A DNA stretch of 46,295 nucleotides from Limnochordia bacterium (lineage in GTDB: Bacteria > Bacillota > Limnochordia > Darwinibacteriales > DTU012): NCBI GenBank assembly GCA_007116145.1, contig SKJB01000131.1, positions 1 through 46,295 on the forward strand, given 5' to 3'. Positions within the stretch are counted from its first letter, which is position 1, and each line of letters begins with the position of its first letter. The notes under the pieces are model-generated. The model made no database searches. It was not told the origin of the DNA and saw only the letters and a program-made list of their open reading frames with translations. Shown here one piece after another: positions 2,947-35,936 of the stretch. The translations under genes and the position numbers were made by a program.

Positions 2947-5652
2947 TTGCTAGTAAAACGACTACCTTGGATACTTACTTTGTGTCTAGTAATCGTATTT
3001 GCAGGTAGTCTACCAAGCACTGCCAACACGTATTACACGTTAGAAACCCCGAATTTCTTGATTCATTTTCCCTTAGAATATCTGGATTATGCCAAACAAG
3101 TGGGAACTGTAGCTCAATGGGCTCACGATCAATTATACCCTGCGTTTCGTTATACGCCAGAGGAACGTACTCATATCACGGTCTTCGACCGAGGTGACCT
3201 GGCAAATGGCTTTGCTGATAGTATATTGTATAATATGATTGGTCTTTATCCAATCGATCAGGTTGGATATGGCTATCGCTCTGGGATGAGCGCTAATGGT
3301 TCGGATTGGTTATCCCTACTAGTCCTACATGAATATGCACATATTCTTCATCTCGACTTAAATACAGGACTAGCCCGCAATCTTCGTAGTATTTTCGGCC
3401 GAATACCTGGAGCTGGTAATCCCCACATAATGCAGAGTTATGCGTTAATTGAGGGGATTGCCTTATGGCAAGAGACAAATAAAACAGGTGGAGGACGGGG
3501 AACAGCGGGGTTTTATGATATGTTTCTGCAGGGCATATTAGCGGATCAGAAATTCCTATCTGGAGATCAGGTTCTTGGCCGCTATAGTCTTAGTGGTTGG
3601 CATCCTGGCACCGCATATTATTTCTATGGCTACTATTTGGTCGACTATTTGATTAACCAATACGGAGAGGACTCCTTTTATCGATTGTTAGATTATTTAG
3701 CGCAACAACCGACATCCTTAGATAACGGTCTAAACGAAATATACTATCAGGGCTTTAATCAGATCTGGGATGATATGGTGTATACTCTGCAAGCAAAACA
3801 AACTAGTAAGAAACAGACTACACAAGCTTGGGAGTATCTTAATACTCATGGAGAAATTCAGCGCCATCCTGTTTTCTCGCCTGATGGAAACCACCTTGTC
3901 TATTTTGCGAGTGGAAATACCACACCTGCTCTACGCATGTATTCATGGTCAACAGGTGAGGATCAGCAACTCGTTCAAGGACGCTTTAGTGATGAATCGC
4001 AAGTATCCTGGTTAGATAATCAGCGTATTGTTTATGGAAAACTAGAGTTAGATCGTTTTGGTTACTCCCGTTACGATCTCTATGAATATAACTTAGCAAC
4101 CAAACAGGAAACCCGGCTTAGTTTCGGCAAGCGTATCTATGCTGTGACAGCATTAGATTCGGAGTCATTAGTCTATTTGCAGCGAACAACAGAAGATACG
4201 GTAATCGGCGTTAAGCAAGATGGCGCTTTTCAAACCATTGAGGGTCATCCGGGAGATCGCTTAGCAAATATCACTGCAGCATCCAACGGCACACTCGCAA
4301 TTAGCGTAACGGAAGCTTCGGGTTACCGCAACTTGTATTTGCTGACGATACATGGAGCACATAGTATTCGCACTCCGATCACGCAAGATACAAAGAGCCA
4401 AGGGAATCCAGTATTTAGTACTGATAACCGCTATCTATTTTTTGATGGAGATTATACAGGAGTGTTTAATATCTATGCATGGGATATCCAGACCAACCAA
4501 TTTTATCAAGTCACCAACTCACGCTTTGGTTCCTTTGCTCCAGCAGTGACCATCGATGGGCAGTGGCTTGTCGTGATGGATTATACCCCTGATGGATATA
4601 AGCTTGCTAAAGCAAAGCTAGATTCAAGGGAGTGGACTGCTGTCCAGCTCCCGTTCGTTAGTTTACCTGTTGCTAGCAAACCGGAATTGTTTCAAGGAGA
4701 GATAGTTCCGTATAACTCGTTATCGAGTATGCGTCCGCGTTTTTGGCTTCCTGTTCTGGAAGCTGAACCGCAATTCGTTACCGGCGTGTACACCGCAGGT
4801 AGGGATGCCCTCGACCAACACGATTACTCCGCCATGATCGGCTATGGATGGGACACGCATACCCTTGCTGTTAAACTGAACTATCAACATAAGGTTAGAG
4901 CTCCTTTCCGTCCGACTCTTACAGTATCCTTTACACAAGCAACACATATGCACGATCAGGGTTTTCGCCAACAGCAGAACTTCGATTTAATGTCTTTGAT
5001 CACAAAACAAACCTACTTTTCCGCTTTACAGTTTGGAATGGGCTTGACTGGAGTAAGGCAGGTAACAAAGCCTTTGTCAACCACAAAGTTAGCAGGAAAA
5101 CTAAGGATTACCTACCAAGATTACCAGGGCGCAGGCACACACTATCACCAACGAAGTGGGGTACTGACGTATCTACAAGAGTTGAACACAGCTAAACGGT
5201 ATCAAACAGGGGTGTTAGCGTGGAAGGAAGCATGGGGTGAATTAGGTTCTGGAAAATTAACAATGCAGACAACGATTGGACACTCTAGCGATCCAAATGG
5301 TTTTGTTGTTGGAGGCCTAGATGGGGTCTATGCAGTTCGAGGTTATGGTCGCGAAGAACGAACAGATGCGTATATCTTATCCTTTGACTTTGAGTACCCT
5401 GTGTTAAAAATCGAGCGAGGTTGGGCGGATTTTCCAATATTTCTACAAGAATTTCAACTTAATGCATTTATGGATTTCACAGATGGGTGGTCACAAAATC
5501 GCTGGCAGTCTGCAGGATTCGAGTTCGGTCCAAATATTTCTTTACATTATGGTAATGCTACGTTTTACCCAAGGATTGGCGTAGTTAAAACAATTCATAA
5601 CGAGAAATGGCAGTGGTATCTACGAACTGGTATGGGGTCTATCTACTTTTAG
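2947..5652 (+). CDS. Exported HExxH metallopeptidase with TolB-like repeats and an Omp85-like C-terminal barrel
   Basis: 901 residues from TTG 2947, preceded by AAGGAGG. Residues 1-26 form a signal peptide ending near S-T-A. Residues about 30-290 carry a gluzincin-type active site: H128-E-Y-A-H132 and a downstream L-I-E169-G-I-A segment supplying the third zinc ligand, as in peptidase MA-like enzymes. Residues about 300-560 hold WD40/TolB-like beta-propeller blades (repeated P-V-F-S-x-D-x-x-x-L-x-F). From about 600 the sequence alternates like an outer-membrane barrel, with G-G-L-D-G-V-Y-A-V-R-G-Y at 788-800 followed by an F-D-F-E-Y-P strand, the pattern around the VRGF/Y motif of Omp85/BamA barrels, and ends in aromatic Phe. 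Peptidase and propeller are well supported; the barrel is inferred. It stands alone between a divergent DUF421 operon and copZ. Confidence 0.75.
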   Translation: MLVKRLPWILTLCLVIVFAGSLPSTANTYYTLETPNFLIHFPLEYLDYAKQVGTVAQWAHDQLYPAFRYTPEERTHITVFDRGDLANGFADSILYNMIGLYPIDQVGYGYRSGMSANGSDWLSLLVLHEYAHILHLDLNTGLARNLRSIFGRIPGAGNPHIMQSYALIEGIALWQETNKTGGGRGTAGFYDMFLQGILADQKFLSGDQVLGRYSLSGWHPGTAYYFYGYYLVDYLINQYGEDSFYRLLDYLAQQPTSLDNGLNEIYYQGFNQIWDDMVYTLQAKQTSKKQTTQAWEYLNTHGEIQRHPVFSPDGNHLVYFASGNTTPALRMYSWSTGEDQQLVQGRFSDESQVSWLDNQRIVYGKLELDRFGYSRYDLYEYNLATKQETRLSFGKRIYAVTALDSESLVYLQRTTEDTVIGVKQDGAFQTIEGHPGDRLANITAASNGTLAISVTEASGYRNLYLLTIHGAHSIRTPITQDTKSQGNPVFSTDNRYLFFDGDYTGVFNIYAWDIQTNQFYQVTNSRFGSFAPAVTIDGQWLVVMDYTPDGYKLAKAKLDSREWTAVQLPFVSLPVASKPELFQGEIVPYNSLSSMRPRFWLPVLEAEPQFVTGVYTAGRDALDQHDYSAMIGYGWDTHTLAVKLNYQHKVRAPFRPTLTVSFTQATHMHDQGFRQQQNFDLMSLITKQTYFSALQFGMGLTGVRQVTKPLSTTKLAGKLRITYQDYQGAGTHYHQRSGVLTYLQELNTAKRYQTGVLAWKEAWGELGSGKLTMQTTIGHSSDPNGFVVGGLDGVYAVRGYGREERTDAYILSFDFEYPVLKIERGWADFPIFLQEFQLNAFMDFTDGWSQNRWQSAGFEFGPNISLHYGNATFYPRIGVVKTIHNEKWQWYLRTGMGSIYF

Positions 5653-5656
5653 ATTC

Positions 5657-5685
5657 TTGACAAACTTTATGAACCACGGTAGAAT
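5657..5685 (+). promoter_or_regulatory. copZ promoter
   Basis: TTGACA at 5657-5662, a 17-base spacer and TAGAAT at 5680-5685 make a near-consensus SigA promoter. It lies just after the stop of the peptidase gene and 44 bases ahead of the copZ ATG. Confidence 0.75.
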
Positions 5686-5693
5686 GTACCTAG

Positions 5694-5710
5694 ATACCCA
5701 CTCAGGGTAT
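5694..5710. promoter_or_regulatory. Palindromic operator before copZ (CsoR/CstR-like)
   Basis: ATACCC-ACTCA-GGGTAT is a perfect inverted repeat with 6-base arms, starting 8 bases after the -10 box and therefore covering the expected transcription start. CsoR-family repressors bind GC-tract palindromes of the form TACCC...GGGTA. The same consensus, ATACCC-N5-GGGTAT, occurs once more in this window, inside the trxA promoter. The regulator is not encoded here. Confidence 0.65.
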
Positions 5711-5728: not shown

Positions 5729-5935
5729 ATGAAAAGGGTTGTTTTCAAAGTAGAGGGAATGAGTTGCAATCATTGTGCGAATGCGGTTAAAACTAGTTTG
5801 CAAGAGTTACCGCATATAACCGCTATTGACGTGAATCTAGCACAAAAAAGTGTAACGATTTCAGTGGATAGTGATACCGCAGACCAAAAGGCAATGAAAG
5901 AAGCGATTGAAGAAGCTGGTTACGAGGTAATCTAG
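5729..5935 (+). CDS. copZ: CopZ-like heavy-metal-associated (copper chaperone) protein
   Basis: A 68-residue protein read from ATG 5729 behind AGGAGG; the longer open frame from 5657 runs through the promoter and is not coding. It has the HMA fold signature G-M-S-C-N-H-C at residues 11-17, which binds one Cu(I) through the two cysteines, then A-V-K-T-S-L and the C-terminal E-E-A-G-Y-E-V typical of CopZ and of P-type ATPase metal-binding domains. It probably shuttles copper to an exporter encoded elsewhere, as no CopA or CsoR is in the window. A strong promoter and a palindromic operator precede it, and a 16-bp hairpin overlaps its stop codon. Confidence 0.85.
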   Translation: MKRVVFKVEGMSCNHCANAVKTSLQELPHITAIDVNLAQKSVTISVDSDTADQKAMKEAIEEAGYEVI

Positions 5936-35371: not shown

Positions 35372-35448
<77 letters not shown>

Positions 35449-35555: not shown

Positions 35556-35873
35556 TTACGAAGCTAGAATTTCCTCTAACTTTGCAGCGATAACTTCTTT
35601 TGAAACCGCTCCGACTACTTGCTCAACGATCTCGCCATCTTTGAAAAACATTAATGTGGGAATACTCATAATCCCATACTTACTAGGAATTTCTGTATTT
35701 TCATCTACATTCACTTTACCTACTACCGCCCGATCGGAATACTCTGTGGCTAATTCCTCCACAATAGGACCAACCATCCGACAAGGACCACACCAGGGAG
35801 CCCAAAAGTCTACAAGAACCACACCAGAACCAACCTCTTGTGCAAAGTTAGCATCAGTAAATTGCTTTGCCAT
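35556..35873 (-). CDS. trxA: Thioredoxin
   Basis: 105 residues with the active site W27-C-G-P-C31, the preceding V-D-F-W-A-P, the cis-proline in M-S-I-P-T-L, and the standard length. It reduces disulphides in ribonucleotide reductase, peroxiredoxins and other targets. ATG 35873 lies behind GGAGG. The promoter is unusual: a 19-base palindrome fills the -35/-10 spacer and matches the operator ahead of copZ, so trxA expression probably answers to a CsoR/CstR-type repressor sensing copper or persulphide. Confidence 0.97.
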
Positions 35874-35907: not shown

Positions 35908-35936
35908 ATAGTATACCCCGCAGGGGTATAAGTCAA
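35908..35936 (-). promoter_or_regulatory. trxA promoter with operator in its spacer
   Basis: Minus strand TTGACT (35936-35931), 17-base spacer, TACTAT (35913-35908). The spacer is almost exactly the palindrome TATACCCC-TGC-GGGGTATA (35930-35912, minus strand). Sharing of the 17-base core ATACCC-N5-GGGTAT with the copZ site points to one repressor for both. Confidence 0.75.

Follow-up and report, generated by a model that had tools for sequence, protein, structure and literature searches.

A CsoR-type operator in the trxA promoter and its candidate copper repressor in the Darwinibacteriales

Could a single CsoR-type repressor control a thioredoxin together with a copper chaperone, and which signal would it read? 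The question arises from a 46,295-nucleotide stretch of Limnochordia DNA (the window), in which one palindrome, ATACCC-N5-GGGTAT, stands at the promoters of both trxA and copZ. Copper harms thiols and Fe-S clusters, and CsoR regulons have mostly been described as copper export genes. If thioredoxin is a conserved CsoR-type target, copper sensing would be tied to disulphide repair at one promoter.

Operator sites in the window and its genome

The window contains two perfect copies of ATACCC-N5-GGGTAT, at trxA and copZ, and no third (Table 1), as the preliminary description of this DNA had reported, and 100 dinucleotide shuffles yielded none. That description took the two copies for one shared operator, and their sequence and internal spacing indeed agree, but their positions differ: ATACCCCTGCGGGGTAT occupies the 17-base spacer between the −35 and −10 boxes of trxA and overlaps the first base of the −10 box, whereas ATACCCACTCAGGGTAT lies 3′ of the −10 box of copZ, following TTGACA, N17, TAGAAT and 8 further bases. 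Both sites fit the published type-2 consensus of streptomycete CsoR, ATATACCCCTNAGGGGTATAT, which has a non-conserved N5 and obeys a general TAC-X9-GTA rule (PMC3902906), and the copZ site displays the TAC-X9-GTA pattern with G/C tracts at a copper gene that marks CsoR family operators. A one-mismatch copy at positions 4583-4599 of the window falls within a coding frame. Between trxA and an sbcD-like nuclease gene lies a tRNA gene (35375-35448, minus strand).

Table 1 Operator sites, promoters and genes in the window, and two further perfect sites of the same genome
Feature	Location	Strand	Basis
CsoR-type operator ATACCCCTGCGGGGTAT in trxA promoter	35913-35929	minus	perfect match to ATACCC-N5-GGGTAT
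trxA −35 box TTGACT	35931-35936	minus	sequence
trxA −10 box TACTAT	35908-35913	minus	sequence
trxA, thioredoxin, 105 aa, WCGPC	35556-35873	minus	Pfam PF00085, E 5.9e-32
CsoR-type operator ATACCCACTCAGGGTAT	5694-5710	plus	perfect match to ATACCC-N5-GGGTAT
copZ −35 box TTGACA	5657-5662	plus	sequence
copZ −10 box TAGAAT	5680-5685	plus	sequence
copZ, 68-aa heavy-metal-associated (HMA) copper chaperone	5729-5935	plus	Pfam PF00403, E 1.5e-18
Perfect site, YraQ/ArsP-like permease pair	C63:29797		one weak and one good ArsP_1 match in the pair
Perfect site, NapH-like 4Fe-4S protein	C96:36029		promoter

The motif proved rare when the assembly of the window's own genome (G000; 2.76 Mb, 164 contigs) was scanned, with five perfect copies against none for a reversed-pattern control, so the many random occurrences that would have refuted the proposal were not seen. 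Four of the five lie in promoters, those of copZ, trxA, a YraQ/ArsP-like permease pair and a NapH-like 4Fe-4S protein, the last two extending the predicted regulon. The fifth copy (C93:73452-73468, locus L277) is an intrinsic terminator separating two genes that converge and was discarded as a false positive; motif scans of this kind need to guard against such cases. One-mismatch sites on contigs C19 and C39 were set aside as lying inside long coding frames, as was one on C44 that overlaps only a short, questionable frame and has no gene start nearby. Upstream of copA, only a half-site was found, which counts against a shared copper regulon.

The candidate repressor and its copper site

The preliminary description had postulated a CsoR-family repressor, and the genome does encode one: a single PF02583 (CsoR-family) gene, csoR-A, on contig C14, convergent with trxB, a thioredoxin reductase gene. 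Its product scores 109.7 bits against the PF02583 cut-off of 22.8, its closest solved structures are CsoR proteins (best 4m1p, E 1.6e-27), and alignment with CsoR proteins reveals a complete Tyr-Cys-His-Cys-Glu, the canonical Cu(I) signature. CsoR proteins bind Cu(I) via positions X, Y and Z, whereas CstR proteins work through two cysteines, those of X and Z (PMC5146963). Of the two repressor types initially suggested, CsoR and CstR, this sole family member bears the signature of the former but not of the latter, as its Cu-ligand His is present. No rhodanese, persulphide dioxygenase, sqr or tauE operon was recognised adjoining csoR-A or at the perfect sites of this genome. A weaker operator copy, ATGCCTCTAGGGGGTAT, lies in the −35/−10 spacer of the csoR promoter itself, here and in G002, and ATGCCC...GGTAT sites resembling it stand at csoR in G004, G005, G006, G007 and G008, a recurrence among relatives that suggests autoregulation within this family.

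Relatives carry two CsoR paralogues, A and B. In a tree, group A comprises 34 rows at support 100/98 and group B comprises 31 rows at 100/100, both separate from the outgroup rows of the class. CsoR-A adjoins trxB at 32 of 34 loci, with no trxB in the stretch read at the other two, and was never found beside copA among these 34. Most CsoR-B genes adjoin copper ATPase or HMA genes (copA/copZ), and their operons carry the operator AACACCCCCCGGGGGTGTAGT or near variants 3′ of the −10 box in many genomes of family f3, and longer G-tract sites in family f1; these operators were found by reading operon starts, a G-tract palindrome pattern having recovered few. Use of the trxA operator by CsoR-B was rejected, as AACACCCCCCGGGGGTGTAGT differs from it. 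CsoR-A was not detected in three genomes (G009, G017, G027), two of which have the trxA operator. Because trxB is absent from all three as well, the shared CsoR-A/trxB locus is probably missing from these assemblies.

The presence of CsoR-B was compared with the copper genes and with the state of the copper site in CsoR-A. CsoR-B was not found in G000, G002, G003, G012 and G015, and neither paralogue was found in G009. In all four B-less genomes of families f1 and f5, the A operator stands on copZ, perfect in G000, G002 and G012 and with one mismatch in G003, and a one-mismatch A-type site lies on copA in G012 and G009. Genomes carrying CsoR-B, surveyed for perfect sites only, have none at copZ or copA. 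The Y-C-H-C-E signature of CsoR-A is intact in the same four B-less genomes and, among the B-carrying ones, in only four (G001, G004, G007, G011); in the remainder, the second-shell Tyr is replaced by N, D, S, P or A, or Gln stands in place of the Glu. All B paralogues are Y-C-H-C-E. The ligand His of CsoR-A itself is replaced in five genomes, by Tyr in G013, G019, G028 and G033 and by Phe in G036; four of these retain the trxA operator, and no trxA was recovered from the fifth, G036. Copper is thus not the universal signal, because His-less relatives keep the trxA operator, and in these relatives the signal would have to be something other than copper, most simply thiol chemistry.

In the window's genome, Cu(I) appears the most likely effector, given that CsoR-A retains every residue of its copper site and has copZ among its putative targets. 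If CsoR-A binds the operator, we regard Cu(I), by itself or combined with thiol chemistry, as quite probably the signal, and thiol or sulphane sulphur alone as decidedly the less probable one. The two cysteines may supply a second input through oxidation or persulphidation, and a dual copper/thiol input is plausible because CsoR regulons of Bacillus subtilis are induced by polysulphanes, with trxA and trxB rising within the Spx response (PMC6943732).

The strongest rival explanation casts CsoR-A as a CstR-like sensor of thiols or sulphane sulphur that forms a disulphide or trisulphide between its two cysteines, its regulon repairing sulphur stress with no role for copper. YeeE/YedE sulphur-transport pairs (PF04143) in G012, G014, G020 and G027 and TlpA-CcdA in G031 carry the operator, and yeeE-yedE genes belong to persulphide regulons in other systems (PMC7315123); the five His-less relatives keep both cysteines, as at positions X and Z of CstR (PMC5146963), and the polysulphane response in B. 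subtilis (PMC6943732) fits as well. However, the repressor of the window's genome combines the full Cu(I) signature with an operator on copZ, and every class relative of this type and every B paralogue likewise has Y-C-H-C-E, making this sulphur-only explanation an unlikely one beside Cu(I) sensing.

Conservation of the trxA operator within the order

Of 37 genomes of the order, 33 yielded an orthologue of the window's trxA, each with the operator between its −35 and −10 boxes, perfect in 30 and with one mismatch in G003, G014 and G026. The four genomes in which no orthologue was found (G009, G016, G035, G036) are assemblies of 75-88% completeness. Across the 37 genomes, perfect sites number 54, against 3 for the reversed pattern. 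When 32 trxA promoters were aligned on the operator, its half-sites reached ~2.0 bits per base and the flanks 0.27 bits, and TTGACA −35 and TATAAT-like −10 positions were conserved too, leaving the −35 box, the operator and the −10 box as the sole strongly conserved elements 5′ of trxA. Some g7 and g14 loci were retrieved via the site rather than the gene, with which the full thioredoxin match list agrees; the thioredoxin tree was built on few columns and leaves many forks unresolved.

The operator is confined to this thioredoxin gene among those read: it was absent from all 37 others, namely the order's second paralogues and the genes of class outgroups, and from distant thioredoxins recovered by a TrxA search of the named genomes. 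The label 'primary thioredoxin' that trxA had been given needs correcting to one of two, as the genome has a second thioredoxin, 46% identical, on C138, without the operator. Several perfect sites elsewhere in the order were rejected as background, those at G002:C58, G005:C124, G006:C6:126714, G008:C20:37931 and G036:C174 lying in coding frames, that at G009:C249 being a terminator, and that at G008:C5 lying where the frame call is unsure.

The operator, its placement, its conservation, the gene neighbourhoods and the residue signature are seen directly in the sequence; from them we infer binding, repression and an effector as follows. We consider it likely that one repressor, CsoR-A from C14, binds ATACCC-N5-GGGTAT and coregulates trxA, copZ, the permease pair and the NapH-like protein. 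At trxA, bound CsoR-A should block RNA polymerase because the operator fills the −35/−10 spacer, and at copZ it would cover the transcription start region. Cu(I) loading, or reaction of its cysteines, would release the protein, and with its DNA affinity lost, trxA, copZ, the YraQ-like permease pair and the NapH-like Fe-S protein would be turned on together.

The same promoters bear on the remaining explanations. Thioredoxin genes of the trxA type are frequently essential and constitutive, so the site could be a CsoR operator while the main trxA start lies elsewhere and regulation is quantitatively minor; the −35 box, operator and −10 box being the only strongly conserved elements of the 32 aligned promoters speaks against this, and we judge it improbable. 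Binding of the palindrome by a different repressor family, for example an ArsR-type protein, has a precedent in RexT, which controls a thioredoxin gene in Nostoc (PMC8960804), but the sequence and spacing are exactly the CsoR consensus and the site precedes csoR-copA in other lineages, making this very improbable indeed. That the copies are chance palindromes or terminators, as one of five in the window's genome is, can be dismissed as next to impossible, being contradicted by the empty shuffles and by a trxA promoter position kept in 33 genomes while the flanks diverged.

Distribution beyond the order and relation to known systems

The proposal that a CsoR-type regulon includes both copZ and trxA gains support from the 33 of 33 trxA promoters, by csoR beside trxB and by the class outgroups, in which all 18 CsoR rows of this type are Y-C-H-C-E and the same operator lies 5′ of copA. 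Of 398 phylum genomes sampled, 17 have a promoter-embedded operator. In 5 it belongs to trxA promoters of the window organism's own family; elsewhere it precedes csoR-copA (3), copA (2), a YraQ-like permease gene (1) and a handful of further genes. No trxA with a promoter-embedded operator was found outside the order in this sample. Two gene clusters provide independent support for a link of the PF02583 family to thioredoxin, both in relatives from the class: in G049 (L233:1983-3691), trxA, a distant PF02583 regulator and a thioredoxin-reductase-like gene share one strand, and in G039 (L192:2933-3560), a distant PF02583 gene precedes a thioredoxin gene.

The CsoR family and its type-2 operator are already known; what seems new is a CsoR lineage with thioredoxin as its conserved target, as neither this nor CsoR control of trxA was found in the open-access literature searched. 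The CsoR copZA regulons of Streptomyces lividans, B. subtilis and Staphylococcus aureus share the PF02583 fold family, Tyr-Cys-His-Cys-Glu, operator sequence and spacing, and the copZ target, whereas here the order-wide target is thioredoxin, csoR lies by trxB rather than copA, and copA of the window's genome has a half-site only. Persulphide-sensing CstR of S. aureus and Enterococcus faecalis resembles CsoR-A in family, in the sulphur-transport targets of relatives and in the loss of His in five, but the His that ligates copper is retained in the repressor of the window's genome, targets of the rhodanese, persulphide dioxygenase or sqr type were not seen, and the targets here are scattered. 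RexT of Nostoc, an ArsR-family protein, is a thiol-based repressor of a thioredoxin gene (PMC8960804), but its family and operator are unrelated to those of CsoR-A and its signal is H2O2. TTHA1953 of Thermus, a CsoR-family repressor of sulphur oxidation, offers a parallel as a paralogue beside a true copper CsoR with a non-copper regulon and two non-overlapping operators; in contrast, its operator is TACNNTACNNNNGTANNGTA and its targets are sox genes, not thioredoxin (PMC10318464).

Residues and outgroup targets point to copper as the ancestral role of CsoR-A, a role we infer rather than trace because the deep branching of A, B and outgroup is not firm. Taking these observations together, our best reading is that thioredoxin captured an ancestral copper repressor lineage and that copper and thiol defence would still be coupled in the window's genome. 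More tentatively, and with slightly less than even confidence, we speculate that CsoR-A is in transition from a copper to a thiol-redox sensor: captured by the thioredoxin system through the trxA operator and the trxB neighbour, it would have gone on sensing copper in lineages that never gained a second copper CsoR, and would have given up its copper site stepwise in those that did, leaving a natural series of copper-only, dual and thiol-only forms. Copper sensing and protein-thiol repair appear to stand under one repressor whose copper site decays where a second copper sensor is present. Since A and B have different operators and copper-site residues have been lost by degrees, the pair lends itself to testing directly how metal sensing turns into thiol sensing, a step that CsoR and CstR must themselves once have made.

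Other genes with the operator recur among relatives. Split YeeE/YedE pairs have it in their promoter at L247:1089-2206, L246, L160 and L161. Permease pairs carry it in G014 and G016, and YraQ/ArsP-like pairs of the order and of one distant phylum genome at L299, L004:477-1495, L245 and L162; their substrate is possibly copper or sulphur related. NapH-like proteins have it in G011, G030 and G035, and with one mismatch in G003, and such membrane 4Fe-4S proteins are met with it repeatedly (L006:1534-2301, L243, L249, L251, L321). In three phylum genomes (L287, L288, L302), a promoter-embedded operator lies 5′ of a protein starting like VACGTMIPELNYLK, which we take to resemble DUF1638, presumably an unexpected target of a CsoR-type repressor, and in one distant genome (L300), it stands on a gene whose product looks to us to be of the OsmC type.
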